Assembly: GCA_026125665.1 (NCBI GenBank)
Contig: JAHCKS010000061.1
Location: 1-33,027, forward strand
Reading direction: 5' to 3'
Length of the DNA: 33,027 nt
Origin: Rubrivivax sp.
GTDB taxonomy: Bacteria > Pseudomonadota > Gammaproteobacteria > Burkholderiales > Burkholderiaceae_C
The position numbers were made by a program, and so were the translations under genes. How positions within the stretch are numbered: the first letter of the stretch is position 1; every line of letters begins with the position of its first letter. The notes under the pieces were generated by a model. The model ran no database searches and was not told the DNA's origin. It was given only the letters and a program-made list of their open reading frames with translations. Shown piece by piece: positions 1 through 12,591 of the stretch.

Positions 1-346
1 GCGGCGGTGCAGCGCCCTCGCCGTCGCCATCGCCGCGCCCGCCCCCGCCGCAGCCCACCAGCAGCCAGGCTGCCAGCACGGCGGCGAACAGCGCCGCGAG
101 GCGACCCCGGTGCCCGGCCACGCCCTGCGGGCGCGCGGCGGCGAAAGCCTGCGCCCCGCGCCAGGCATTCACCGGCAGCAACACCAGGTGCAACGCCACC
201 ACCGGGGCCAGGCCGGCCGCCAGGCCATAGGCGATGAAGGCGACGTTCGTGAACACGGCCAGCACGCGCATCGCACGGGCGTGGGCCGTGGCGAACGTGG
301 CCACCATCAGCGCCGCGGCGCTCCAGCCCAGGGTGTCGGCATGCAT
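1..346 (-). CDS. Small hydrophobic membrane protein, C-terminus cut by window edge
   Basis: The minus-strand reading frame begins at ATG (346-344), behind a good ribosome site (GAGGAG, about 8 bases upstream), and stays open to the window edge, giving about 115 visible residues. The visible part is mostly hydrophobic. There is a first helical stretch at about residues 9-22, a second around 28-60 that ends in a short LHLVLLPVNAWR segment, then an arginine-rich loop, and a third helix around 83-97 that ends in LLVGCGGGG. This looks like an inner-membrane protein with at least three membrane segments. The HxxLLPxNxxR segment resembles the membrane part of small proteins seen in Burkholderiales, sometimes joined to a cyclic-nucleotide-binding domain. 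The end of the gene is not visible, so no function is assigned. Confidence 0.6.
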   Translation of the reverse strand, partial: MHADTLGWSAAALMVATFATAHARAMRVLAVFTNVAFIAYGLAAGLAPVVALHLVLLPVNAWRGAQAFAAARPQGVAGHRGRLAALFAAVLAAWLLVGCGGGGRGDGDGEGAAPP

Positions 347-746
347 CGGTCACTCCTCACGCGATGGATGGCACACGAGCCTGCAGCCGGCCCGCGCGAT
401 GCCCCGCAGGGCGCAGCCCTCGCGCCTTCTGCCTGCCGTGGGAAGAACGCGGCGATGCCGCCGACCCGGACAGCGCCTGCGGCGCCTCGCCCTTCGGAGG
501 GAGCCGCGCGGCATCGCGGCCGGCCTTGCGGCGCAGGGCCCGGCGCTGCCCGCAATGACCCGCCGATCACGTTCATCGCCTCAGCGCGCCGCACGCAGCC
601 GAAGATGCGTTGCCGGTGCCTCCGACCAGGAGGCTCCCATGTCGAAGACCCGTTCGTCCGCGGCGCGGCGCGCGCGGCTGACCCCCGTCGACTTCGTCGT
701 GCTGCGCATCGTGCCGTGGCCGCCTGGTCGCGCGGCCGCCGCCGCT
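347..746. other. Gene-poor stretch between the membrane protein and the kinase
   Basis: No convincing complete gene is seen in these 400 bases. One start-like signal is present on the plus strand: AGGAGG at 628-633 followed by ATG at 639. Its frame gives about 30 plausible residues (MSKTRSSAARRARLTPVDFV...) and then runs antisense into the end of the kinase gene without a stop. It may be the remnant of a gene whose rest has been lost, or chance. No clear rho-independent terminator for the kinase operon was found here. Confidence 0.4.
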
Positions 747-3563
747 TTAGCGCACCGTGCCTGCCTCCAGGAGCCGGGCCGCCCGCAGCATGGCCTGTCG
801 GCCTTCGGCTGCCTGGCCGAGCGCGATGTGCGCCTGGCCGAGCGTCGCCAGGCGCCCGGCCTCCTCGGGCCCGTCGGCGCCTCCTTCGCCGGGCGCGCGC
901 TGCAGGCGCTGCAGCTCGGCCATGGCTTCGCGGGCGTCGCCTCGGGCCAGCGCCAGCTGCGCCAGCTCGGCGCGTGCCGCATCACGCCGCGGCCGGTGCA
1001 GCGGCGTGTCGGGCAGGGCCGCCAGCGCCTCCTGCTGCAGTGCCATCGCCTCCTCGGTGCGCCCCTGCAGCGCGCGCACGAGACCGGCCGCGTGCAGGCC
1101 GCGGTAGCGCGGCACGGGGCGTGCCGCGCGGTACGCGGCCAGCCGCGGCGCGAGCTCGCTCCAGGCCGCATCGAGCCGGCCGAGCCGCGCCAGCGAGGTC
1201 GCATGGCTGGCCGCGATGTCCAGCGTCAGCGGATGCCCGGCGCCCCGCTCGCGCTGCATCCAGGCCAGCGCGCGAGCCAGCTGCTCGCGCGCTTCCTCGT
1301 GCCGTGCCAGCGCCAGCAGCGCCCGGCCATGTGTCCAGCGCGCCGCGGCCACGGTGTAGGAGTCCTCGGCCGCGTCGCGCTCGGCGATGCGGCGGGCGAG
1401 CGCGGCCATCGCTTCGGCCGCCGCGGGCCGCATCAGCTCGAGCTCGAAGCGCGCGATGTCGGCCGCGACGAAGGCGGCCATGTTCGCCTCGGCACCGAGC
1501 AGCTCGCGCACCTGCTGCAGCACGTGGCGCAGCTCGTCCACCGCCTCGGCGTAGCGCCCGACGTTGCCCAGCGCCCGCCCGACCATGAAGCGGGCGTCGA
1601 GCACGCGCGCGTGCGGCCGTTCGCCACCGTGGATGCGCAGCAGCCGCTCGCGCGCCTCGACGGCCAGCGTCAGCGTGGCCTCGGCGTCGCCGCCGAACTG
1701 GCCGGTGGAGGCCAGCAGCAACGCCGCGTCGCCGGCCACCGGGTCGTTCTCGCCGCGCAGCTGCACGGCCAGCTGCAGCGCCTCGCGCGCCACGGCCGTG
1801 GCCTGCACATACTGCCCGCTGTCCAGCGCCAGGTGCGCCGCGGCAGTCAGCGCGCGCTGCAGGTTCTCGCCCGGCCCGGTGCGCGCGCCGCGCAGCACCG
1901 GCAGCAGCACGTCGAGCTCGGCCTTCATCTCGGCCGTGCGGCCGCGAAAGCGGTGCACGGCCAGCATCGTGATGCGTGCCTTCTGCGTCAGCGGGTGGTC
2001 GGCACCGAGGCCGCCGCGCCCCTCGTCGATCGCCTGCGCCAGCACCTGCTCGGCGCGTTCGAAGCGGCTCAGCCCGACGTAGCTGGCGCCGAGCATCTCG
2101 AGCAGCTCGATGCGCGTGGCCGCGCCGCCGGGCAGCGGGCCGCGCAGCCGCTCCTCGGCGCGCTGCAGCAGGCCCTCGACCGTCGGCGCGCGGCTCGTCG
2201 TGTTGAACGGGTCGGCGTCGGCCAGCAGGCCGGCGACGAAGCCCTTCACGGCCTCGGCGCGCCGCTGCTCCCCGCGCGCCACGTGCGCCTGCCACAGGGC
2301 GACGACGAGCCCTGCGGCCAGCGCCAAGCCCACCGCGGCGCCGGCCGACACGGCGAGCCGGTTGCGCCGCACGAAGGTGCGCACGCGGTACCACGCGCGG
2401 TCGGGTTGTGCCAGCACCGGGCGGCGCTCGAGGTGCCGCTGCACGTCCTCGGCCAGCGCGGCCACCGTCGCGTAGCGCTCGGCCGGTTCGCGCTTCAGCG
2501 CCTTGAGCACGATCGTGTCGAGGTCGCCCCGGATGGCGGCGCGCCGCGCCGGCGGCGCCAGCGCGCTCGGCCGCGGCAGGTCGCCCTGCGACACCGCCTG
2601 TTCGAGCGCCGCGCGCGCCGGCTGGCGCGCCGGCTCGAGCCGGTACGGCCGTGCGTCGGCCAGCAGCTCGAACAGCACGACGCCGAGCGAGTAGACGTCG
2701 CTCGCCGTGCCGATGGGCCGGCCGAGGACCTGCTCGGGGCTCGCGTACTCGGGGGTGTAGGCGCGGCCGGCCTCGCGCGTGAGCTCGGTCTCCGCCACCA
2801 CGCCTTCGGCGGCCAGCTTGGCGATGCCGAAGTCCAGCAGCTTCACGTCGCCGGTGGGGGTGACGAGCATGTTCGCCGGCTTCAGGTCGCGGTGCACGAC
2901 GAGTTGCGCGTGCGCGTGCGCGACGGCGCGGGCCACCTGCAGGAACAGGCGCAGGCGCGAGCCGACGTCCAGCTGCCTCGCCCGGCAGTGCATGTCGATG
3001 CGCTCGCCGGCCACGTACTCCAGCGCCAGCCACGGCTGGCCCTGCGGCGTGACGCCGGCGTCGTACAGCCGCGCGATGTTCGGGTGCTCGAGGGTGGCCA
3101 GGATCTCGCGCTCGCGCGCCAGGCGCTCGGCCAGCCCGGCGCGTTTCCACGCGCCGTGCGGCAGCTTCAGCGCCACCTGCCGGCCCTGCAACATGTCGGT
3201 GCGTTCGGCGAGCCACACGCTGCCCATGCCGCCGCTGCCGAGCTCGCGCAGCAGCCGGTACGGGCCGACCGCATCGCCGGCCCGCTCGCCGGCGCCGGGC
3301 GCAGGAGCGAACTGCCCCGTCTCGACCTTCGGGAGCGTCTCGAGCAGGCGCGCCGCCGTGGCTGGCGCGCCGCCCGAGGCTTCGGCCGCGTCGGCGGCGT
3401 TGGCCAGCAGCGCACGCAGGCGCGGCACCAGGGCCACCGCCGGCGCGTCCGACAGCGAGTCGAGCCAGGCCGCCCGTGCGCCCGCCGGCTTGGATAGCGC
3501 CTCGTCGAGCAGCGTGCGCAGCATCGCCCACTCGTGCGGCGCGAGCCTGAAGGCCTCATTCAT
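747..3563 (-). CDS. Membrane-anchored Ser/Thr protein kinase with TPR-like C-terminal half
   Basis: The protein has about 938 residues. An N-terminal region of about 100 residues is followed by a Hanks-type kinase domain: glycine loop LGSGGMGSVW at 108-117, ATP lysine K133 (VALK), catalytic loop HRDLKPAN with D226, DFG with D244, and a YTPEYASPEQ activation segment. All catalytic residues are present, so it should be active. One membrane helix lies after the kinase domain (RNRLAVSAGAAVGLALAAG, about residue 400). The remainder is alanine/leucine-rich helical repeats of TPR type, probably outside the cytoplasm. The start is the ATG at 3563 (MNEAF), placed directly behind GGAGGA. The frame is open further upstream, but only through a 13-bp repeat array. 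It is the last gene of the unit protease, exosortase-like, sigma factor, kinase, 170 bp behind the sigma factor. Kinases of this layout next to ECF sigma factors are known to control them by phosphorylation (e.g. PknT/EcfP in Vibrio). The same role here is inference. Confidence 0.9.
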   Translation of the reverse strand: MNEAFRLAPHEWAMLRTLLDEALSKPAGARAAWLDSLSDAPAVALVPRLRALLANAADAAEASGGAPATAARLLETLPKVETGQFAPAPGAGERAGDAVGPYRLLRELGSGGMGSVWLAERTDMLQGRQVALKLPHGAWKRAGLAERLAREREILATLEHPNIARLYDAGVTPQGQPWLALEYVAGERIDMHCRARQLDVGSRLRLFLQVARAVAHAHAQLVVHRDLKPANMLVTPTGDVKLLDFGIAKLAAEGVVAETELTREAGRAYTPEYASPEQVLGRPIGTASDVYSLGVVLFELLADARPYRLEPARQPARAALEQAVSQGDLPRPSALAPPARRAAIRGDLDTIVLKALKREPAERYATVAALAEDVQRHLERRPVLAQPDRAWYRVRTFVRRNRLAVSAGAAVGLALAAGLVVALWQAHVARGEQRRAEAVKGFVAGLLADADPFNTTSRAPTVEGLLQRAEERLRGPLPGGAATRIELLEMLGASYVGLSRFERAEQVLAQAIDEGRGGLGADHPLTQKARITMLAVHRFRGRTAEMKAELDVLLPVLRGARTGPGENLQRALTAAAHLALDSGQYVQATAVAREALQLAVQLRGENDPVAGDAALLLASTGQFGGDAEATLTLAVEARERLLRIHGGERPHARVLDARFMVGRALGNVGRYAEAVDELRHVLQQVRELLGAEANMAAFVAADIARFELELMRPAAAEAMAALARRIAERDAAEDSYTVAAARWTHGRALLALARHEEAREQLARALAWMQRERGAGHPLTLDIAASHATSLARLGRLDAAWSELAPRLAAYRAARPVPRYRGLHAAGLVRALQGRTEEAMALQQEALAALPDTPLHRPRRDAARAELAQLALARGDAREAMAELQRLQRAPGEGGADGPEEAGRLATLGQAHIALGQAAEGRQAMLRAARLLEAGTVR

Positions 3564-3691
3564 GCCGTCCTCCGCTGCCGTCCTCCGCTGCCGTCCTCCG
3601 CTGCCGTCCTCCGCTGCCGTCCTCCGCTGCCGTCCTCCGCCGCAGTGCTCCGCCACAGTCCTCCGCCGCAATCCTCCGCCACAATCCTCCG
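3562..3691 (-). repeat. Ten-copy 13-bp tandem repeat of Shine-Dalgarno-like units before the kinase start
   Basis: Read on the minus strand, ten 13-bp units follow each other without gaps. Four are diverged (CGGAGGATTGTGG, CGGAGGATTGCGG, CGGAGGACTGTGG, CGGAGCACTGCGG), five are identical (CGGAGGACGGCAG, plus-strand 3575-3639), and the last is CGGAGGACGGCAT, whose final AT forms part of the kinase ATG. Nine of the ten units carry GGAGG. The diverged units lie on the sigma-factor side and the identical ones next to the kinase, as expected if the array grew from the kinase end. A unit of 13 bp shifts the frame by one per copy, but because the array is upstream of the start codon it does not alter the kinase protein. 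Confidence 0.95.
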
Positions 3692-3733
3692 CCGCGGGTG
3701 CCGGGCGCTGCCGACCACAGGCGCCGCTTGCGG

Positions 3734-4477
3734 CTACTTCAACGCCTCGGCGAGGAACAGCCGCGCCTGCTCCCAGTCGCGCCGCACGGTGCGGTCGGTG
3801 ACGCCGAGCGCCTCGCCGATCTCCGTCTCCGTCATGCCGCCGAAGTAGCGCATCTCCACCACCCGCGCCATGCGCTCGTCGACCTGCGCCATCTCGGCCA
3901 GCGCCTCGTGCACGCGCAGGATGTGCTCCTCCTCGGCGGGCACGGCGTCCACCAGGTCGCCCGTGAGCGTGAGCAGGGCCACGTCGCCGCCGGCGCGCTC
4001 GGTCTGCCGCTGCCGCACCATGTCCACGATGATCGAACGCATCGCCCTGCCGGCGTAAACGAGGAAACGCGGCCGATCCGGAAACGCCACGCCGGCCATC
4101 CGGCTGAGCTTGAGGTAGGTCTCGTGCACGAGCGCCGTGGTGTCGAGCACGGTGTTGCGGCCACCGCCGCGCAGCCGCGCGCGCGCCAGCCGGCGCAGTT
4201 CCTGGTACGCGGCGGCAAAGGCCTGCTCGACGCTGAGGTCGGCCGGTGCGGGCGTGCCGCCGACGTCGGGCGGGGCCGGCAGCCCGGCGGCGCTCGCCGC
4301 AGCGCCCTCGCGCGGCGCGCTCGGGGTCGAGGCCTTCGGTGGGCCGGACGGGCCCACCGGAGTGCCTTCGCGCTGCGCGCTGCGGAATTCACCCTTCGGG
4401 CGGCCGGGCGGGCTCATGGTCGGCGTGTCGTTCGTACCGTTGGCTGGGCCATGGACCGGATCGTGCGGACTGGGCAC
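3734..4477 (-). CDS. ECF-type sigma-70 family RNA polymerase sigma factor
   Basis: The protein has 247 residues from a GTG at 4477. The recognisable sigma domain begins at about residue 80: region 2 reads AAAYQELRRLARARL, then TALVHETYLKL, then RPRFLVYAGRAMRSIIVDMVR. Region 4 carries EIGEALGVTDRTVRRDWEQAR, a helix-turn-helix near the C-terminus. This fits the Sigma70_ECF family (TIGR02999-like), often encoded beside Ser/Thr kinases. The first ~80 residues are proline/glycine-rich and consist largely of two tandem copies of a DNA repeat (plus-strand 4301-4418), so they are probably not an ancestral part. The start is unsure: GTG 4477 or ATG 4417 (MSPPGRPKG), neither with a strong ribosome site. 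It lies 68 bp after the exosortase-like gene and ahead of the kinase on the same strand. No anti-sigma factor gene is nearby, so control by the kinase is a reasonable inference. Confidence 0.88.
   Translation of the reverse strand: MPSPHDPVHGPANGTNDTPTMSPPGRPKGEFRSAQREGTPVGPSGPPKASTPSAPREGAAASAAGLPAPPDVGGTPAPADLSVEQAFAAAYQELRRLARARLRGGGRNTVLDTTALVHETYLKLSRMAGVAFPDRPRFLVYAGRAMRSIIVDMVRQRQTERAGGDVALLTLTGDLVDAVPAEEEHILRVHEALAEMAQVDERMARVVEMRYFGGMTETEIGEALGVTDRTVRRDWEQARLFLAEALK
4301..4418 (-). repeat. Two tandem copies of a ~60-bp dispersed repeat inside the sigma factor gene
   Basis: Unit 1 (4301-4355) and unit 2 (4361-4415) are offset by 60 bp and match at about 39 of 55 positions by eye. On the coding strand they encode [17 protein letters not shown] and the related GPPKASTPSAPREGA. 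Unit 2 matches a block in fdhD (11051-11117) at roughly 85 percent over 68 bp, but there it is read in another frame. A short perfect stem GGTGGGCC/GGCCCACC also lies at the junction of the units. Confidence 0.8.
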
Positions 4478-4545
4478 ATTGTGGGCGCCGCGCAGGCAAG
4501 CATGCGCGGTGCCGATGCGAGGACGCGGCGCTGCCGGCCGCTTCG

Positions 4546-5790
4546 TCAGCGCGAGGCCGGCGCGGCGGGCCGCGCCTGCGGCCGCAGCATCCGGTTCGCC
4601 TGTGCGTACTCCACGTCGGGCCTGTGCTGCACCTTCGCGATCAGCGCCAGCGTCAGCGCGTCGAGGTCGTAGCGCAAGCGCAGGTGCGCCTCGGCCCCGT
4701 CGGGCTCCACGCCCGGCTGCAGGAGACCGGCCACGGACAGGCGGCCGGGCAGCGCTTCGCGCCGGGCGGCGGAAGTGCCCGGGCGTGTCTCGAGCCGCAG
4801 CACGAGCTCGGCGGCCGGCAGGCCGCTCGTCGAGCCCGCCGAAGGCGCAGGCACCGTCATCACCGCCCGCTGCACTGTCGCTTCACGGCCGGCGCGAGCG
4901 AGCAGCTGGCGGCCGAGCGCCTCGCGGTCGACGGCGAGCAGCGCCTCGCGCCCCGAGGTCACCTGGGCCAGCACCAGCGGCACGCCGAGCTCGCGCGAGA
5001 GCCGCTGCGCCAGCGGCGCCACGCCGGCCACGGTGCGCTTGCCCGCCAGCACGTCGGCGAGCTGCCGGCCGGGTTCGGTGGCATCGCGGAACTTGACGAT
5101 CAGGTCACCGGACACGATGGGCGCGGCCTGCGGCGACGGCATGGCCGTGCCGCCGGGCACCGGCGTCGCGGGGGCCTGCGCGACCGGCATGCCTCGGGCC
5201 GAGGCGAGCACGACCAGCGGCACGCACACGAGCGCGGCCGCCGCGGCGGCCTGCGGGAGAGGGACCCCTGTCGCGGCCCGTGGCCCGGGCGCCGCTCGCC
5301 CGTCCCGCGCATCGCTCCGCTGCCGCAGCACCCAGGCCACGAGCCCGGCGCCCGCTGCCACGAGGAAGAGCGGCCCGATCACCTCGTGCATCCAGGCGAA
5401 CGAGGCCGGGGCGACGGCCCCGCACCAGAGCACCGCGACGAGCCGCAGCTGGTTGGCCAGCGCAACCGCCGCCACACCGACGAGCGCACGCGCCAGCACC
5501 CGCGGCAGCGCCGCACGCGCCGGCGCGGCCGGGCCGTCGCGCACGCCGGGCGGTCGGCGGTCCCTCCCGCGGCGCGAGACGGCGAACGAGACCGCGGCCA
5601 GCGTCACCAGCCACAGCAGCACGGGCCACAACGCCGTGCAGTCGCGGTGCACCTGCGCCACGAAGCCCGAGGCGTGCCGCAGCTGGTCGCCGTGCAGCTC
5701 GAACGGCGTGCCGAGCGCCCCCAGCACCACCTGCGCCACGCGCGCCGTGGCCAGGCCGAGCGCGTCGATGGCCGCCAGCGGCTCGCTCAT
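4546..5790 (-). CDS. Exosortase/archaeosortase-like membrane protein with a subtilase-propeptide-like C-terminal domain
   Basis: The protein has 414 residues in two parts. Residues 1-200 hold several membrane helices with the exosortase signature order: a cysteine in HRDCTALWPVLLW (C51), an arginine in ANQLRLVAVLW (R116) and a histidine in FAWMHEVIGPLFLV (H135). A further helix lies at about 181-198. In known exosortases, Cys/Arg/His form the active site that cuts C-terminal sorting tails. Residues ~225-400 are soluble. They begin GDLIVKFRDA and end RPDVEYAQANRML, matching the start (GQVIVKLRAG) and end (RPDVEYAQPNFIV) of the propeptide of the protease encoded just upstream. The gene starts 7 bp after the protease stop codon, so the two are probably translationally coupled. 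Exosortase fused to a propeptide-like domain is not a layout known to me. Inference: it processes the neighbouring protease's tail, and its extra domain binds or inhibits that protease. It could instead be a non-sorting membrane protein, since sequence similarity outside the three motifs was judged by eye only. Confidence 0.75.
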   Translation of the reverse strand: MSEPLAAIDALGLATARVAQVVLGALGTPFELHGDQLRHASGFVAQVHRDCTALWPVLLWLVTLAAVSFAVSRRGRDRRPPGVRDGPAAPARAALPRVLARALVGVAAVALANQLRLVAVLWCGAVAPASFAWMHEVIGPLFLVAAGAGLVAWVLRQRSDARDGRAAPGPRAATGVPLPQAAAAAALVCVPLVVLASARGMPVAQAPATPVPGGTAMPSPQAAPIVSGDLIVKFRDATEPGRQLADVLAGKRTVAGVAPLAQRLSRELGVPLVLAQVTSGREALLAVDREALGRQLLARAGREATVQRAVMTVPAPSAGSTSGLPAAELVLRLETRPGTSAARREALPGRLSVAGLLQPGVEPDGAEAHLRLRYDLDALTLALIAKVQHRPDVEYAQANRMLRPQARPAAPASR

Positions 5791-5797
5791 GCCCCAT

Positions 5798-7729
5798 TCA
5801 GCCCCGGCGCGTGCGCCACCGCCAGGCGCCGAGCATCGCCATGAGCCCCATCGCCAGCGCGCCTGCCCATGACAGCGCCGACACCTTGGCCGCCACGGTG
5901 ATCGCCGCGCTCGCCTGCGCCCCCTCGACGCTGGCGCTGACGGTGGCGTTGCCCGGTGTCAGCCCGGCGACGACGACGCGCGCCTGGCCGGTGGCATCGG
6001 TGGTGGCCGAGGTCGGCGTCACCGTGGCCACGGCGGCGTTGCTGGTGGCGAAGGTCACGGCCTTGTTCGCCAACGGCGCACCGGCGGCCGACACCGTGGC
6101 CACCAGCGTGGCGCTGGCGCCGATGTTCAGCGTGGCCGTGTTGGGCGCGAGTGCAACCATCGCGCCGTCCGGCGGTGGGGGCGGCGGCGGCGGGGGCGGC
6201 GGCGGCGTGCCGCCGAGCGCCGCGCGCGCGTTCAGCAGCCCCGCGCCGCAGGGGCGCGGGCATTGCGTCGTGTCGCGCGGCAGCGCCTGCGCCTTCAGCT
6301 CCGCGAGCACCTGGGCCGGCGTCAGCGTCGGCCGCGCGGCGAGCATCAGCGCCACCACGCCGGCCACGTGCGGGCTCGCCATCGACGTGCCGTTGTAGCG
6401 CGCGTAGCCGCCCTGCACCATCGACAGCACGCCGTCGTTCTGGCCGTCGCCGGTGTCGTCGCGCTGCGTGTCGCCGCCCGGCGCGAGGATGTCGATGCGC
6501 GGCCCGAAGTTGGAGTAGCGCGTGACGAGGAAGCCACGGGCGTCGCTCGCCGCCACCGTGACGACACCGTTGCAGCCCGCCGGCACGAAGCCCGACGCAT
6601 CGGCCGCCGAGTTGCCCGCCGCGACGACGACGGTGGCGCCGGCGCCGATGGCGTCGTTGATCGCCGACTGCGTGGCCGGCGAGGCCGAGCACGGCGACCC
6701 GCCGCCCAGGCTCATGTTGATGACCTTGGCCGGCGTGGCGTTGTTCGGCACGCCGGGCACCGGCAGGCCGGCGGCCCAGCGGATCGCGTCGTTGATGTCG
6801 ACCATCGTGCCGCCGCACTTGCCGAGCACGCGCACGGCCTGCAGCTTCACCGTCCAGTTGACGCCGGCCACGCCGACGCCGTTGTTGGTGTTGCCCACGC
6901 CCACGGTGCCGGCGACGTGCGTGCCGTGCCAGCTGTTGGGCTGCCCCGGGATGCCCGGGCCGCACTCGCCGGTGCTGAAGCCGTCGCCGGGGTCGGTGGG
7001 GTCGTTGTCGCGGCCGCCGCCGTCGTTGGCGATGAAGGCGTCGCTGATCATGTCGAAGCCGGGCACGAGGTTCGGCGAGCCGGTGATGTCCGGGTGCGCC
7101 GGCAGGATGCCGGTGTCGATGACGGCGACGACGACGTTGGCCGAGCCCTTGTTCGTCTCCCACACCTGCGGCAGGTTGATGCCGCCGGGCACCTGGCCCG
7201 TGCCGGTGCCGTTGTCGGCGTAGTGCCACTGCTGCACGAAGCCGGGGTCGTTCGGCACGGCGCCGATCTGCACGATGAAGTTGGGCTGCGCGTACTCGAC
7301 GTCGGGGCGCGCGGCGATCGTGCGCACGAGCTCGAGCGTGCGGTCGCGCATCGCCTGCGGCTGCATGTTGCGCGCCACGCCGGGCTGGATGCGGTAGATG
7401 CGCTCGCCGCCCGAGGTGAGCTGCTCGTCACTCTCGATCTGCAGGCGCTGCATGTCGGGCGCGGCCATCGCCGTGGTGCGGCCGGCGCGCAGCTTGACGA
7501 TGACCTGGCCCGGCACGAACGGCGCCTCGCCGGCAGCGATGCGGCGTTCGAGCAGGCGGCCGACGTCCTCGGGGCTTACCGGCTGCACGGCGAGCGGTGC
7601 CGGCGGTGGGCTGGGCGCGGGGGGCGGGGCCTGCGGCGCCGGGGCCGGCGTGCGCTGGCACGCGGCCAGCGCCAGCAGCGCCGCCGCCACCACGGCGAAA
7701 CGGGAGCCTGACGGCGGCTTGGTGTTCAT
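5798..7729 (-). CDS. Subtilisin-like (S8) serine protease, lipoprotein with C-terminal membrane tail
   Basis: The protein has 643 residues. The start is ATG 7729, right behind AGGAGGAGG; the frame is open upstream but without signal-peptide character. Residues 1-24 are a lipoprotein signal with lipobox LAAC (C24), followed by Q25, which favours the outer membrane. A proline-rich linker comes next, then a propeptide (about 70-153), then the catalytic domain with D205 (VIDTGI), H268 (HGTHVAG), oxyanion N373 (AAGNS) and S449 (NGTSMASPHVAG). All are intact, so the enzyme should be active. After the domain come a run of 12 prolines, an Ig-like domain of about 85 residues, and a final segment ALSWAGALAMGLMAMLGAW ending in RWRTRRG. 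That last piece has the shape of an exosortase/sortase target tail (short motif, helix, basic end), close in feel to IPTLxxWG-type tails but not matching them exactly. First gene of the four-gene unit. Confidence 0.92.
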   Translation of the reverse strand: MNTKPPSGSRFAVVAAALLALAACQRTPAPAPQAPPPAPSPPPAPLAVQPVSPEDVGRLLERRIAAGEAPFVPGQVIVKLRAGRTTAMAAPDMQRLQIESDEQLTSGGERIYRIQPGVARNMQPQAMRDRTLELVRTIAARPDVEYAQPNFIVQIGAVPNDPGFVQQWHYADNGTGTGQVPGGINLPQVWETNKGSANVVVAVIDTGILPAHPDITGSPNLVPGFDMISDAFIANDGGGRDNDPTDPGDGFSTGECGPGIPGQPNSWHGTHVAGTVGVGNTNNGVGVAGVNWTVKLQAVRVLGKCGGTMVDINDAIRWAAGLPVPGVPNNATPAKVINMSLGGGSPCSASPATQSAINDAIGAGATVVVAAGNSAADASGFVPAGCNGVVTVAASDARGFLVTRYSNFGPRIDILAPGGDTQRDDTGDGQNDGVLSMVQGGYARYNGTSMASPHVAGVVALMLAARPTLTPAQVLAELKAQALPRDTTQCPRPCGAGLLNARAALGGTPPPPPPPPPPPPDGAMVALAPNTATLNIGASATLVATVSAAGAPLANKAVTFATSNAAVATVTPTSATTDATGQARVVVAGLTPGNATVSASVEGAQASAAITVAAKVSALSWAGALAMGLMAMLGAWRWRTRRG

Positions 7730-7870
7730 GGATCCTCCTCCTGGCTCGGTGCGCGACGCACAGGCCCGCTGCCGCGAGGCGCCCCACCGCCGAGAGGCGA
7801 TGGCGCACGCGGGTCCGGTCGCGCAGGACAGTCTCTGCCCGCACCCGGGCGGCCACAAGGTGCGAACCTA

Positions 7871-7897
7871 GGGGACCGTGTCCCCCGCAGGGGGGAC
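7871..7897. promoter_or_regulatory. Overlapping GC-rich palindromes upstream of the protease operon
   Basis: About 140-160 bp ahead of the protease start lie GGGGAC (7871-7876), GTCCCCC (7880-7886) and GGGGGAC (7891-7897). The middle block can pair with either neighbour: a 6-bp stem with a 3-base loop, or a 7-bp stem with a 4-base loop. The two hairpins exclude each other. In the only long untranslated region of the operon this could be an operator or a leader structure, which is inference. The remaining bases between 7730 and 8001 show no gene and no clear -35/-10 pair. Confidence 0.4.
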
Positions 7898-8001
7898 GTG
7901 TCGTCGCCGCAGGTTCATGCCCGAAGCGCACCCGAGGCAGCGCGCCGGGCGTCGCGCGATGCCGCGCGCGGCACCGGCGCGCCCGGGAGGTCGAGGCCTC
8001 A

Positions 8002-8160
8002 GAAGCTGTGAATGAACCGGCCGCGCCCGAGCGGCACGCCAAACGGCGCCCGATCTAGGCGCAAAGCGCAGCCATAGCTCGGGCTATGGCGAGCATTTGC
8101 AACGACGAGCGGGCGTCGTTTGGCGTGACGAGCGGGCGTGGAGGGTTCGTTCACAGCTTC
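8002..8160 (-). mobile_element. 159-bp hairpin element, copy A (MITE-like)
   Basis: The ends are inverted repeats, GAAGCTGTGAAYGAACC. Inside, successive blocks pair across the element (e.g. CACGCCAAACG with CGTTTGGCGTG), and the centre is a perfect small stem GCCATAGC/GCTATGGC. The whole element can therefore fold into one long imperfect hairpin. It is identical base for base to copy B (31731-31889) in reverse orientation. On the minus strand it begins immediately after the TGA stop of the threonine aldolase gene and is followed by another TGA. It contains no gene. It may act as a transcription barrier between the aldolase and the protease operon. It resembles a non-autonomous miniature transposon, but no matching transposase lies in the window. 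Confidence 0.88.
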
Positions 8161-9210
8161 TCAGCGCCCGCCCAGCAGCGCGGCGAGCTGCGCTGCCGCC
8201 TCGTCGCACTGCGCGGCGTTCACGTCCAGGTGCGTCACTGCACGCACCGTGCGCGGCCCGAAGGCGTTGAGCAGCACGCCGCGCTTGCGCGCCTCGGCCA
8301 CGAGCGTGGCCGCGTCGGGCGTGCCCGGCACGTCCGCCTTCAGGTGGAAGACGACGATGTTCGTCTGCACGCTTGCGAGGTCGAGCCGCACCGGCGCGCA
8401 ACCGGCCAGCCGCTCGGCCAAGCGGCGGGCGTTGGCATGGTCCTCGGCCAGCCGCGCGCGGTGGAACTCCACGCCGTGCAGCGCCGCGGCGGCAAAGATG
8501 CCCACCTGCCGCATCGCGCCGCCCAGCCGCCGGCGGTGGCGGTTGGCGCGCGCGATGACCTCGCGCGGGCCCGCCAGCAGCGAGCCGCCGGGCGCGCCGA
8601 GCCCCTTGCTGAAGGCCACCGAGACGAGGTCGAACGGCGCGGCGAGCTCCTTCTCGCTGCGGCCGCTGGCCACGGCGGCGTTCCACAGCCGCGCGCCGTC
8701 GAGGAAGCTGGCGATGCCGCGCTCGCGCGCCAGCGCGCAGATGCGCACCGCCTCGTCCTGCGGAAAGACGACGCCGCCGGCGCGGTTGTGCGTGTCCTCG
8801 ATCTCCACCACCGTGGTGGCCGGGAACACCGGCAGGCCGGCCGGCTTGATGGCCGCCTCGAACTGCTCGCGCGTGAAGACGCCGCCCTCGCCGACCTCGA
8901 CGATCTGCACGCCGGCGTTGGCCGCCGCGCCGCCCGCCTCGTGCCAGCCGGCATGCGCCTCGCGCGCCGTGATCACCTCGTCGCCGGGGCGCGCCAGCGC
9001 CAGCAGCGCCACCTGGTTGGCCATCGTGCCGCTGGGCATCCACAGCGCCGCTTCCTTGCCGAGCAGCGCCGCCATCTGCTCCTGCAGGCGGTTGGTCGTG
9101 GGGTCCTCGCCGTACTGGTCGTCGCCGACGTCGGCGCGGGCCATCGCCTCGCGCATGGCAGGCGTCGGGCGGGTGACGGTATCGCTGCGCAGGTCGATCG
9201 CGGTGGGCAT
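8161..9210 (-). CDS. ltaE: Low-specificity L-threonine aldolase
   Basis: The protein has 349 residues and is a fold-type I PLP enzyme that splits L-threonine or L-allo-threonine to glycine and acetaldehyde. It opens with the family signature [19 protein letters not shown] and continues with [10 protein letters not shown]. The glycine/serine loop PSGTMANQ, the region [10 protein letters not shown] (Asp that holds the PLP pyridine) and [11 protein letters not shown] with the PLP-binding lysine near residue 200 are all present. Length and motifs are normal. The start is ATG 9210, directly before the DLRSD motif; its ribosome site is weak. The stop codon abuts the 159-bp hairpin element. It is divergent from moeA across 184 bp that hold no obvious signal. 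Confidence 0.93.
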
Positions 9211-9394: not shown

Positions 9395-10726
9395 ATGAAC
9401 GAACTCGGCCCCTCCCCGCTCGCTGCCGGCGAGCGCAACCTCGGCGTCGACGAGGCGCGCGCCGCCATCGCGGCGGCGCTGGTGCCGCTGCCGCGGAGCG
9501 AGTCGCTGGAGGTGCCGCTGCACGAGGCCGACGGGCGTGTGCTCGCCGCCGACGTCGTCTCGCCGATCGACGTGCCGGCGCACGACAACTCGGCGATGGA
9601 CGGTTATGCGTTCGCCGGCGCGGCGCTGCGCGCCGACGGGCCGACGGTGCTGCGCGCCACCGGCACCGTGGTGGCCGGCGCACCGTACGGCGGCACGCTC
9701 GGCGCCGGGCAGTGCCTGCGCGTCATGACGGGAGCGGTGATGCCGGCCGGCGCCGACACCGTCGTGCCGCTGGAGCTCGTGCGGGTGCAGGGCACCCCCG
9801 ACGGCGGCGAGGTGCACATCCCGCCGGGCGTCATCCGCCCGGGCGAGAATCGGCGCAAGCGCGGCGAGGACCTCGCCGCCGGCAAGGCCGCGCTCGCCGC
9901 CGGGCGGGTGCTGCGGCCGGCCGACGTCGGGCTCGCGGCTTCGCTCGGGCTCACGCGCGTGCGCGTCATGCGGCCGCTGCGCGTGGCCCTCTTCTCCACC
10001 GGCGACGAGGTGACCGAGCCCGGGGCGCCGCTGGCGCCCGGCTGCATCTACGACAGCAACCGCTTCTCGCTCGGCGCGGCGCTGCGCCGCCTGGGCATGG
10101 AGGTGGTCGACCTCGGGCTCGTGCGCGACGACCGCGCCGCGCTCGCCGCCGTCGTCGCGCGCGCCGTGCGCGAGGCCGACGCCGTGGTGACGAGCGGCGG
10201 CGTGAGCGCGGGCGACGCCGACTACACGCGCGACATCCTGGCGCGGCACGGCGACGTGGCGTTCTGGAAGGTGGCGATGCGGCCGGGGCGGCCGTTCGCC
10301 TTCGGGCTGCTGCGGCGCGAAGGAGCCGGCGGCCTCGCACCGGGGCCGGCGGGCGAGGCCCCGCCGCCGAGCTCGTGGCTCTTCGCGCTGCCCGGCAACC
10401 CGGTGGCCGCGCTCGTCACGTTCTATGCCTTCGTGCGCGAGGCACTGCTCGTGCTGGCCGGCGCGAACGCGGCACCGCTGCCCGTGCTCAGCGCGCGCAG
10501 CACGGCGCCCATTCGCAAGCGCCCCGGGCGCACCGAGTTCCAGCGCGCCATCGTCGAGCCTGCACGCGACGGCGGCGGCTGGCAGGTGCGCCTCTTCGGC
10601 AGCCAAGGCGCCGGCGTGCTGCGCAGCATGAGCGAGGCCAACGCGCTCGTCGTGCTGGCACACGACCAGGGCAGCGTGGCCGCCGGTGAACCGGTCCCGG
10701 TGTGGCTGTTCGACGGGCTGGTCTGA
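9395..10726 (+). CDS. moeA: Molybdopterin molybdenumtransferase MoeA
   Basis: The protein has 443 residues and inserts molybdate into adenylylated molybdopterin in cofactor synthesis. Visible features are [17 protein letters not shown] (N-terminal domain), [28 protein letters not shown], the MoCF-binding domain with FSTGDEV and [13 protein letters not shown], and [13 protein letters not shown] typical C-terminal beta domain with RTEFQRA ends the protein. A linker rich in Gly/Pro/Ala ([18 protein letters not shown]) between the MoCF domain and the PGNP motif is longer than usual. Start ATG 9395 gives a normal N-terminus. It stands tail-to-tail with fdhD (24-bp gap) and belongs to a molybdenum-cofactor group with fdhD and mobA. 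Confidence 0.96.
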
Positions 10727-10750
10727 GCGCCGCTTCTTGCCGGGGCGACC

Positions 10751-11812
10751 TCAGCGCCGGGGCGCGAGGCGCGCCGCGCCGGCGTAGCAGAGGTAGTTCT
10801 GCCCGCCTGCGCGGCCGATGAGGGTGAGGTTCAGCGACTCCGCGAGCTGCTGGCCCATCGCAGTCGCGCCGTTGCGCGAGACGACGAGCGGGATGCGCAG
10901 GCTCGCCGCCTTCAACACCATCTCGCTCGTCAGGCGGCCGGTGGTGTAGAGCCAGCAGGCCTCGCCCGGCACCGCATGCATCGCCATCCAGCCGGCCACG
11001 GTGTCGACGGCGTTGTGCCGGCCGACGTCCTCGACGTGCACGAGCATCTCGGGCTCACCGGAGCACCTTCGCGCTTCGCGCTCCGGCATGAGCCCTTCGG
11101 GCGGCCGGGCGGGCTCATGCGCGGCACGCCACAACGCGGTGCCGTGCACCGAGCCGGCGTCGCGGTGCACGCTGGGCAGCCGGCGCATCGCGTCGAGCAG
11201 CGAGACCAGGCTCTCGTGGGCCACTGTCGGGGTGTCTGCCGCGGGTGCAGGCAGCGGCGGCACACGCTGCAGCCAGTCGCCGAACACCGTGCCCTGCCCG
11301 CATCCGGTGGTGACCGTGCGGCGGGCCAGGCGCTCGGCCAGACTGCCGACCCCGGCGCGCGTGCGCACCGCCGCCGCCGCGACGTCCCAGTCCACCGAGA
11401 CGGACTCGACCTCGCCGACGTTCGCCACGAGGCCCTGGTTCAGCAGGTAGCCCAGCGCCAGCAGCTCGGGCTCCTGGCCGAGCGTCATCAGCGTCACCAC
11501 TTCCTGCCGATCGACATACAGCGCCAGCGCGCGCTCGGCGGCGAGCTGGATGGTCCGGCGCGTGCCGTCGCTGGCCACGGCGACGGCCTCGCGCATCAGC
11601 GCGGCGCGGGCCTGCGTCAGCACCGGCAGCTGGCCCGATGGCGCCACGCGCCGTGCACGTGCGTGCGGCGCGAGGTTCACGGACACGGCGGCTCCTCTGG
11701 CCGTGGCGACGCCTGCACCGGCGGCCGCGGCGCCAGCATCGACCTCGAGACCCTCCAGGCCGGCGAGCACCGGGGCATCGGACGGGTCCTCTTCGATGGC
11801 GATGGTTGACAT
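10751..11812 (-). CDS. fdhD: Formate dehydrogenase accessory protein FdhD
   Basis: The protein has 353 residues and is a sulfurtransferase that hands sulfur from IscS to the molybdenum cofactor of formate dehydrogenases. The family core is clear: EPELLALGYLLNQGLV, TTGCGQGT at the place of the catalytic cysteine motif, EDVGRHNAVDTVAGW, and TTGRLTSEMVLKAA...VSRNGATAMGQQLA near the end. The usual CxxC-like motif keeps one cysteine only (CGQG). Between ALWRAA and EMLVHVEDVGRHN there is an insert of about 23-25 residues (HEPARPPEGLMPEREARRCS...) encoded by a dispersed DNA repeat. Start ATG 11812 (MSTIAIEED) was chosen; an upstream in-frame start at 11866 would add 18 residues. Divergent from mobA. 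Confidence 0.93.
   Translation of the reverse strand: MSTIAIEEDPSDAPVLAGLEGLEVDAGAAAAGAGVATARGAAVSVNLAPHARARRVAPSGQLPVLTQARAALMREAVAVASDGTRRTIQLAAERALALYVDRQEVVTLMTLGQEPELLALGYLLNQGLVANVGEVESVSVDWDVAAAAVRTRAGVGSLAERLARRTVTTGCGQGTVFGDWLQRVPPLPAPAADTPTVAHESLVSLLDAMRRLPSVHRDAGSVHGTALWRAAHEPARPPEGLMPEREARRCSGEPEMLVHVEDVGRHNAVDTVAGWMAMHAVPGEACWLYTTGRLTSEMVLKAASLRIPLVVSRNGATAMGQQLAESLNLTLIGRAGGQNYLCYAGAARLAPRR
11051..11117 (-). repeat. Dispersed ~60-bp repeat inserted in fdhD
   Basis: The block matches the sigma-factor repeat (4356-4418) at about 85 percent over 68 bp and runs in the same direction on the plus strand. In fdhD the reading frame is offset by one base relative to the sigma gene, so the encoded peptides differ completely (EPARPPEGLMPEREARR against SPPGRPKGEFRSAQREG). 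That shows selection or spread at DNA rather than protein level. The block ends carry GGGCTCA in direct orientation. Confidence 0.85.
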
Positions 11813-11895
11813 GCGGGCGCTGCTCACGGCTGCCAGTGGAACACAAACCGCCGACCCGCTCCGCACGCGGGCGCATCGCTGCCGCGGGCCTCAGA

Positions 11896-12591
11896 ATGCC
11901 GGTGTCACGACGCGATGCGCCATTGAACACTCCTGACCCCCGGCCCAGCATCACCGGCCTCGTGCTTGCGGGCGGGCGCGGCAGCCGCATGGGCGGTGTC
12001 GACAAGGGCCTGCAGGAGCTGCACGGCCAACCGCTGGTGCTGCATGCGCTCGATCGCCTGCGGCCGCAGGTGGCCACGCTGGCCATCAACGCCAACCGGC
12101 ACCTCGACGTCTATGCAAGGCTCGGCGTGCCCGTGTGGCCGGACAGCGAGCAGGGCTTCCCCGGGCCGCTGGCCGGCATGCTCGCGGGGCTGATGCAGCT
12201 CGAAGCCCTCGGCAGCGAGTGGCTGGTCACGGTGCCGTGCGACACGCCGCGGTTTCCGCTGGACCTGGTGGCCCGCCTGCATGCCGCCGCCCTCGCTGCC
12301 GGTGCGTGCGTGGCGATGCCGGTGACCGAGGAACCCCGCGTGCCAGGCGAACGGGACCCGGGAGAGGCGCCGGCGCCCCAGCCGCAGCCCGTCTTCTGCC
12401 TGCTGCACCGCTCGCTGCGCGAGCCGCTCGCCGCCGCGCTGGCCGAGGGCGAGCGCAAGATCGACCGCTTCACCCGGCGCCACGGCCATGTGCTGGTGCC
12501 CTTTGCCGACAGCGATGGCTTCTTCAACGCCAACACGGCCGAGGAACTGCAGTGGCTGCGCGGGCAGGCCGGAGAGGCCGCAGGCCGCTGA
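11896..12591 (+). CDS. mobA: Molybdenum cofactor guanylyltransferase MobA
   Basis: The protein has 231 residues and transfers GMP from GTP to molybdopterin to form the guanine dinucleotide cofactor needed by formate dehydrogenase-type enzymes. The nucleotide-binding signature LAGGRGSRMGGVDKGL lies at residues 23-38, followed by INANRHLDVYARLGVPVWPD, FPGPLAGMLAGL and VPCDTPRFP (metal-binding Asp). The C-terminal FFNANTAEEL is also typical. A TTG at 11923 is an alternative start that would give a more compact N-terminus; neither start has a strong ribosome site. Its neighbours moeA and fdhD belong to the same pathway. Convergent with ispF. Confidence 0.94.
   Translation: MPVSRRDAPLNTPDPRPSITGLVLAGGRGSRMGGVDKGLQELHGQPLVLHALDRLRPQVATLAINANRHLDVYARLGVPVWPDSEQGFPGPLAGMLAGLMQLEALGSEWLVTVPCDTPRFPLDLVARLHAAALAAGACVAMPVTEEPRVPGERDPGEAPAPQPQPVFCLLHRSLREPLAAALAEGERKIDRFTRRHGHVLVPFADSDGFFNANTAEELQWLRGQAGEAAGR

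Follow-up and report, generated by a model that had tools for sequence, protein, structure and literature searches.

A minimal exosortase joined to a subtilase propeptide-like domain beside a tailed subtilase in Rubrivivax

We analyzed a stretch of DNA of 33,027 nucleotides from Rubrivivax sp. (contig JAHCKS010000061.1 of assembly GCA_026125665.1; the whole stretch is called the window here), in which four genes on the minus strand encode a subtilase, an exosortase-like protein, an extracytoplasmic function (ECF) sigma factor, and a Ser/Thr kinase. The second part of the exosortase-like gene encodes a propeptide-like protein, to which we gave the name PLP. The genes are separated by gaps of 7, 68, and 170 bp (kinase counted from its ATG), and alignments and motif reading showed the key residues to be present in all four proteins; on both points the original prediction, made from the letters alone, was borne out. 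Its statement that no terminator lies between the genes fared less clearly. No terminator-like and no sigma-70-like sites were found in positions 600-8300, and these absences carry little weight because shuffled sequences averaged just 1.1 and 0.1 such sites, respectively. The same four families, in the same order and on one strand, recur at three more loci (L009, L010, and L016), which makes four of the six loci that carry protease, exosortase, and PLP. The unit is real and conserved, and its oddest feature is not the list of four genes but the union of the exosortase with a domain that resembles the propeptide of the adjacent protease.

The protease gene (5798..7729, minus strand) encodes 643 amino acids with a Peptidase_S8 domain (PF00082, 174 bits), an Ig-like domain, and a C-terminal tail. 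By motif, the catalytic residues are D205/H268/S449, and among solved structures the closest come from secreted proteases, for example 7w2a, 5yl7, 3ti9, and 3lpa. Reading the N termini by eye, we found a lipobox-like LAAC24-Q in the window protease; the form L(A/V)AC-Q is common to the proteases of the window, L009, L010, L011, and L016 and is not found in that of L019. The propeptide (7244..7519, minus strand) ends in RPDVEYAQPNFIVQIGA, which is followed by VPNDP of the expected mature chain. Its alignment across six sequences has a mean column identity of 85%, and it narrowly passes the Pfam fervidolysin prodomain model (21.1 bits; cut-off, 21). Alignment to solved proteases places the start of the mature chain at about residue 158. 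At the other end of the protein, the alignment defines a tail (5801..5902, minus strand) composed of KVSALSW, a hydrophobic stretch, and an Arg cluster, which is presumably a sorting signal. The arrangement KVSA(L/W)SW, hydrophobic stretch, and Arg cluster is found in five proteases of the same genus and is divergent in L019.

Beside the protease lies the exosortase-like gene (4546-5790, minus strand), whose residues 1-163 form a minimal exosortase domain of about 155 amino acids (5302..5790). The exosortase/archaeosortase signature TIGR04178 (curated cut-off, 23 bits) was passed by all six homologs, the window protein included, with 30.0 (window), 37.5, 26.5, 34.5, 31, and 34.7 bits. Residues C51, R116, and H135 are invariant in the six aligned exosortases; we take the conserved Cys, Arg, and His to be catalytic. 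None of the named subfamilies in NCBIfam (XrtA, H, M, R, S, X, and others) was reached, the best scores being 21 to 46 bits against cut-offs of 86 to 225. Exosortase H (XrtH) was the best named subfamily for five of the six proteins and second after XrtM for that of L019. The conserved Cys stands directly before one predicted helix, the Arg inside the one that follows, and the His close to where a third begins; in the window, the loop that joins helices two and three exceeds most of the others by some 20 residues. Arg-rich stretches separate the second helix from the third and follow the fourth, and by the positive-inside rule they are expected on the inside. In the fused forms, an extra transmembrane helix (5203..5259, minus strand) joins the exosortase to PLP; hydropathy places it at residues 178-196 in the window and 153-171 in L010, and the AlphaFold2 model of the window protein places it at residues 179-199. 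Because the Arg-rich stretches are expected inside, this helix would bring PLP to the outside.

Is the joining of exosortase and PLP peculiar to the window? The two are encoded in one frame in the window and in L010, a Rubrivivax metagenome-assembled genome (MAG), and as two genes in L009, L011, L016, and L019. An assembly error in the window was considered and rejected, since L010 is a diverged MAG (53% identity over the fused protein) and is fused too. At the split loci, the exosortase ends after 148 to 202 residues and the second gene opens with an ATG 9 bp on; at all four, the stop is TGA, the PLP gene is in the frame of the exosortase, and the gap is exactly 9 bp (junctions at L009 9234-9246, L011 7560-7572, L016 9797-9809, and L019 10686-10698). 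A single in-frame stop codon therefore separates the split from the fused forms, so that leaky termination is conceivable and could yield some fused product in the four split species. We read the fused and split genes as a domain-fusion link between exosortase and PLP.

The PLP domain (4546..5112, minus strand; 188 amino acids) is a separate gene at the four split loci and at a seventh locus, L133. An alignment of six PLPs spans about 180 residues with a mean column identity of 73%. A hidden Markov model (HMM) built from 12 protease propeptides, with no PLP included, matched all seven PLPs at E ≤ 1.2e-4, and the best of 2,100 residue shuffles reached 0.025. In a profile comparison with hhalign, PLP and propeptide matched over 25 columns (E 7.5e-7, probability 92). 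The significant similarity falls in the second half of PLP, where DVEYAQANR corresponds to DVEYAQPNF of the propeptide. The AlphaFold2 model of PLP (pLDDT 85.9, pTM 0.78) predicts two propeptide-like units, the first with one extra helix, and the topology predicted for the units is that given for subtilase propeptides in PMC6993865. Together, these comparisons indicate that PLP is related to the subtilase propeptide. The original prediction had overlooked this domain, through which exosortase and protease are tied, as well as the lipobox-like sequence of the protease.

The distribution of the unit was examined in several sets of genomes. Six loci carry protease, exosortase, and PLP (the window, L009, L010, L011, L016, and L019); a clear PLP occurs at seven loci, each time with the protease as its neighbor and, except at L133, with the exosortase as well. 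A search for the fused protein in 100 genomes (our own and 99 relatives) gave three good matches besides our own and two weak ones, in G045 and G028 (E 1.6e-4 and 9.8e-4); the region in G028 (L012) matched none of the four proteins. Scanning public genome contigs with a single protein gave none, and scanning them with an alignment gave four loci, one of them new (L016), in records of four MAGs, three labeled Rubrivivax sp. and one Burkholderiales bacterium. Close copies of the protease (82 to 100% identity) were present in 5 of 81 genomes of the genus, and exosortase and PLP accompanied all five. Among 44 further protease matches in the genus, none of the 20 loci fetched (43 to 54% identity) had even one of the partners, on stretches that were short at contig ends for some. 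Within the genus, the fused protein was searched for in 60 genomes and the protease in 81; exosortase and PLP without a close protease could be missed in about 20 of them.

Searches with PLP in wider groups are samples, not a census of its true frequency. They gave 2 of 399 genomes in the family sample (our own and G104, which carries L019), 3 of 369 in the class sample (our own included; one is a weak match to a protease open reading frame [ORF]), 4 of 399 in the order sample (our own included; three are partial matches, E 6e-5 to 3e-4), and 1 of 2 in the order of G727, the match being G727 itself, a member of the query alignment. None was found in plasmids. At L133, which comes from a different family within the class, a protease 54% identical to that of the window (10576-12507) overlaps the PLP gene (9887-10654) by 79 bp, and no homolog of the exosortase, sigma factor, or kinase was found within the 20 kb fetched; the genome has one exosortase elsewhere. 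The L133 PLP ends in YAQPNFVVTIN, almost exactly at the expected propeptide end of its own protease (YAQPNFLVNIVREPNDP). Across the seven loci, this pattern hints that the exosortase may be the later arrival, added to an older pairing of the protease with a propeptide acting in trans.

Does the exosortase have clients other than the protease? The original prediction expected other proteins with the same tail. In six genomes, our tail model picked out the protease each time, with E values no higher than 1.3e-14, and besides it none of the candidates scored (150 of 169 to 340 first-look candidates per genome) passed E 0.001, so that one convincing protein per genome, the protease itself, was found in all six. 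Matches were listed up to E 10; the best after the six proteases had E 0.005, and we rejected as unlikely the idea that many proteins share the tail. Fourteen weaker matches, read by eye, looked like wrong-frame or internal stretches or the last helices of membrane proteins. A search for IPTL-CTERM gave no match in our own genome, and the same search matched in no control genome either. A second exosortase, higher scoring, lies elsewhere in our own genome and in four other genomes of the genus, and G104 has a second, lower-scoring one elsewhere. With one convincing tail per genome and a second exosortase elsewhere, the small enzyme is therefore an extra one with one evident client. The protease tail being the sole convincing one of its kind found in each genome, the arrangement has the evident look of a dedicated one-substrate system.

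We then turned to the sigma factor and the kinase. The sigma factor gene (3734..4477, minus strand) matches TIGR02999 (160 bits; cut-off, 126), and at region 2.2, where DAED is absent, DTTA stands in all nine copies aligned (residues 112-115 in the window). The window ORF has roughly 70 to 75 extra N-terminal residues compared with the reading of L009 (4252-4477); they are rich in Pro, Gly, and Ser and repeat-like, and the true start may lie further in. The Hanks-type Ser/Thr kinase (747..3563, minus strand; 938 amino acids) has a kinase domain (Pkinase, 139 bits), a single transmembrane helix (2301-2357), and a TPR region after it (TPR_12); its start is at 3563 if the ATG is used and at 3671 from an upstream TTG. 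In the ECF43 paradigm, as set out in PMC13147305 and PMC8999054, a protein with a kinase domain, a transmembrane helix, and a periplasmic TPR region phosphorylates its sigma factor; members lack DAED, and most have a Thr there that in the cases studied is phosphorylated by the neighboring kinase. DTTA in region 2.2 and the neighboring kinase fit this paradigm, so the pair appears to be of a known kind, the ECF43/Hanks-kinase type, judging from the motif, the kinase-TM-TPR layout, and TIGR02999. The original prediction had likewise called it a pair of known sort, and the published paradigm agrees. The predicted phospho-acceptor is T114.

The original prediction went further and treated the four genes as a single circuit, in which the kinase senses the state of the protease or the surface and phosphorylates the sigma factor, which in turn drives the operon or other tailed proteins. 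Its best evidence is adjacency. A sigma factor follows PLP in the window, L009, L010, and L016, a Hanks-type kinase adjoins it in all four, the gaps at these loci are 0 to 211 bp by the ORF starts used, and the ECF43-like motif and the layout of the kinase suit such a switch. At L010, two kinases stand in tandem after the sigma factor (3-3209 and 3576-6542), with 67% and 52% identity to that of the window. However, the pair is not beside the unit in L011, where selA comes next, or in L019, and no such protease was found in the fetched stretches of eight loci with close relatives of the sigma factor. At these eight, a kinase like that of the window is adjacent in L135, L136, L137, and L138 and farther off in L139 and L142; L137 is a second copy of the pair in G500, a genome that also has the protease unit. 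Since the pair stands beside four of six units and is also found away from the protease, it is best described as a detachable regulator. The scattering in relatives that the prediction had named as evidence against itself was thus seen in part, for the sigma factor and kinase, and the view of the four genes as an inseparable whole finds no support.

The single circuit further requires that the sigma factor drive the operon. Upstream of the protease gene, an element aligned across five operons reads CCTAGGTTCGCACCTTGTGGCC in the window (7851..7872, minus strand), and the five have CCTAGNTTYNCNNCTTGTGRCC or a close form of it. In seven genomes searched with up to 2 mismatches, the element gave six matches, four of them at this operon, and the reversed control gave eight; we rejected it as a mark of a sigma regulon. 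Sites without mismatch occurred only at this operon, in G000, G009, G039, and G500 (four of the seven genomes), and the two matches outside the operon each carry 2 mismatches. The pattern was derived from these same operons, and G012, whose copy differs, gave no match. G009 retains the element without an adjacent sigma factor and kinase, its best sigma relative being 55% identical, and the element therefore gives no support for autoregulation. With no regulon and no further convincing tailed proteins, the single circuit appears distinctly unlikely to us. The opposite possibility is that the sigma factor and kinase are neighbors only, an independent pair that landed downstream in an ancestor shared by four lineages, with no functional connection to the protease. 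Both halves are separable, and the gap between PLP and the sigma gene differs (68, 102, 0, and 9 bp). However, order and strand have been kept in four lineages whose other three proteases are 82 to 87% identical to that of the window, and we regard mere neighborhood as improbable.

Two repeats lie at the edges of these genes. A 13-bp tandem repeat of about 9 to 10 copies (3563..3695, minus strand; Tandem Repeats Finder) abuts the kinase ATG, and most of its units contain a GGAGGA core like a Shine-Dalgarno sequence; no such array was seen by eye in the sigma-kinase gap of L009, L010, or L016. Changes in its copy number could tune translation of the kinase. Between the protease operon and the neighboring gene, an inverted repeat (7980-8182; arms of 76 nt, 76% complementary, 51 nt apart) resembles a miniature mobile element or a large hairpin.

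How might the parts work together? The anatomy of the unit is well supported, and from it we infer a mechanism. The protease would be exported as a lipoprotein-like precursor carrying its own propeptide and the KVSALSW-TM-Arg tail, and the neighboring minimal exosortase would cut, or cut and transfer, that tail. PLP would be a trans-acting inhibitor or chaperone of the protease, derived from a propeptide; in most relatives it is presumably exported as a separate protein, and here the membrane helix would anchor it to the exosortase. So placed, PLP may keep the protease inactive and stationed at the sorting enzyme until tail processing has taken place. The ECF43-type sigma factor and TPR kinase would form a phospho-switch on the expression of some genes, perhaps including these. 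The export side of PLP, cleavage of the tail, inhibition in trans, docking, the input to the kinase, and the targets of the sigma factor are all proposed steps. As a whole, a dedicated exosortase system for a surface or secreted subtilase, with a propeptide-derived trans partner and a detachable phospho-sigma switch, seems to us about evenly poised between right and wrong. A sharper form of the proposal is a safety catch: the trans propeptide welded to the exosortase would hold the subtilase inactive in the envelope, a single cut of the tail would activate and deliver it at once, and the phospho-sigma switch may set its amount. We put this forward tentatively, as a doubtful extension that, if true, would be a new way of locking a protease until delivery.

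Several observations weigh against the proposed mechanism. The sequence match between PLP and propeptide is limited to the second unit (best domain, 16 to 24 bits), and the first unit, which has no significant propeptide match, is placed by predicted topology alone. Foldseek of PLP against the Protein Data Bank (PDB) gave nothing at E ≤ 0.001 and no propeptide among the 50 of 1059 matches listed, and sequence searches of the PDB with the PLP and propeptide profiles gave no propeptide. Since no significant solved relative emerged, the fold assignment rests on topology and sequence. Pfam gave no match above threshold in the PLP part of the fused window protein (fervidolysin prodomain at 14.8 bits against a cut-off of 21), and NCBIfam gave none on three separate PLPs. 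The model of the fused protein has a pTM of 0.49. Although the separate PLPs have signal-peptide-like N termini by eye, the hydrophobic N terminus exceeds the hydropathy threshold in just two of five (L016 and L133). A lipobox and a C-terminal tail on a single protease are an unusual pairing, the L019 tail is just 35% identical to that of the window, and the hydrophobic stretch of the window tail is below the hydropathy threshold of 1.6 that we used. Finally, the two of six loci without sigma factor and kinase weaken the relevance of the pair to the protease. In addition, six of seven PLPs extend 11 to 15 residues beyond the YxQxN motif, and the propeptide of the window protease extends 7; being 4 to 8 residues longer, these PLPs lack an exact product-like end.

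This longer C terminus suits a different role, in which PLP acts mainly as an adaptor for docking, or as an aid to folding, in the exosortase reaction, its fold merely recognizing the protease and bringing the tail to the active site without inhibiting it. The fusion of PLP to the exosortase in two of six loci points in the same direction, as do the two units predicted in PLP; known propeptide-like inhibitors have one. However, L133 retains the protease and PLP without an adjacent exosortase, so PLP seems to act apart from that enzyme, although the genome has one at another place, and the stand-alone propeptide-like proteins known from PMC6993865 are inhibitors. A purely adaptor role is, in our estimation, unlikely.

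We then compared the proposed exosortase system with published ones. Among open-licence PMC full texts, a scope that leaves most of the subscription literature outside, including the main exosortase/archaeosortase paper, we found no paper joining exosortase with propeptide and none joining exosortase, sigma factor, and subtilisin; texts with both exosortase and subtilase were on other subjects, judging from titles and the starts of abstracts. Within the reach of these texts, PLP would be the first case of a protein resembling a subtilase propeptide that is linked to a sorting enzyme. A dedicated system that unites a single exosortase, its one evident substrate, and a substrate-related partner fused to the enzyme would be a compact, testable setting in which to learn how an exosortase acts on its target. 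The tail VSALSW recalls what we take to be the IPTLSEW motif of IPTL-CTERM (TIGR04174), the partner signal of exosortase H (TIGR04177), and XrtH is, as described above, the best named subfamily for five of the six enzymes; unlike exosortase H, these score just 21 to 41 bits with its model, far under the cut-off of 86. The closest parallel in arrangement is rhombosortase with GlyGly-CTERM, where, according to PMC3237569, a single target tends to adjoin its enzyme, so that one membrane sorting enzyme stands beside one tailed target as it does here; S8/S53-type proteases are among the GlyGly-CTERM proteins according to a figure legend in that article. Unlike rhombosortase, the enzyme here is a member of the exosortase superfamily; the motif of the tail is KVSALSW, and the enzyme has a third, propeptide-like partner linked or fused to it.

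For PLP, the nearest counterparts are the stand-alone propeptide-like inhibitors of subtilases, of which PMC6993865 names SUB1-ProM, TgMIC5, the yeast peptidase B inhibitor, the Pleurotus peptidase A inhibitor, and one from Arabidopsis. Like PLP, they are encoded by a separate gene, and the gene for SUB1-ProM adjoins subtilase genes, one of whose products it inhibits (PMC6993865). These inhibitors are eukaryotic, whereas PLP is bacterial, has two predicted units, and is fused to a sorting enzyme in two species. For the sigma factor and kinase, the counterparts described in PMC13147305 and PMC8999054 are PknS-EcfK of Xanthomonas citri and PknT-EcfP of Vibrio parahaemolyticus. As in the window, a Thr motif replaces DAED in region 2.2, the kinase adjoins the sigma factor, and PknS consists of a kinase domain, a transmembrane helix, and a periplasmic TPR region. 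The motif here differs in retaining the first Asp (DTTA versus QTTA of the PknS-EcfK/PknT-EcfP type). The outputs of those pairs, according to the two articles, are a type VI secretion system (T6SS) or polymyxin resistance, whereas the neighbor here is a protease-exosortase unit, which would lengthen the list of outputs that ECF43 kinase/sigma pairs may have.

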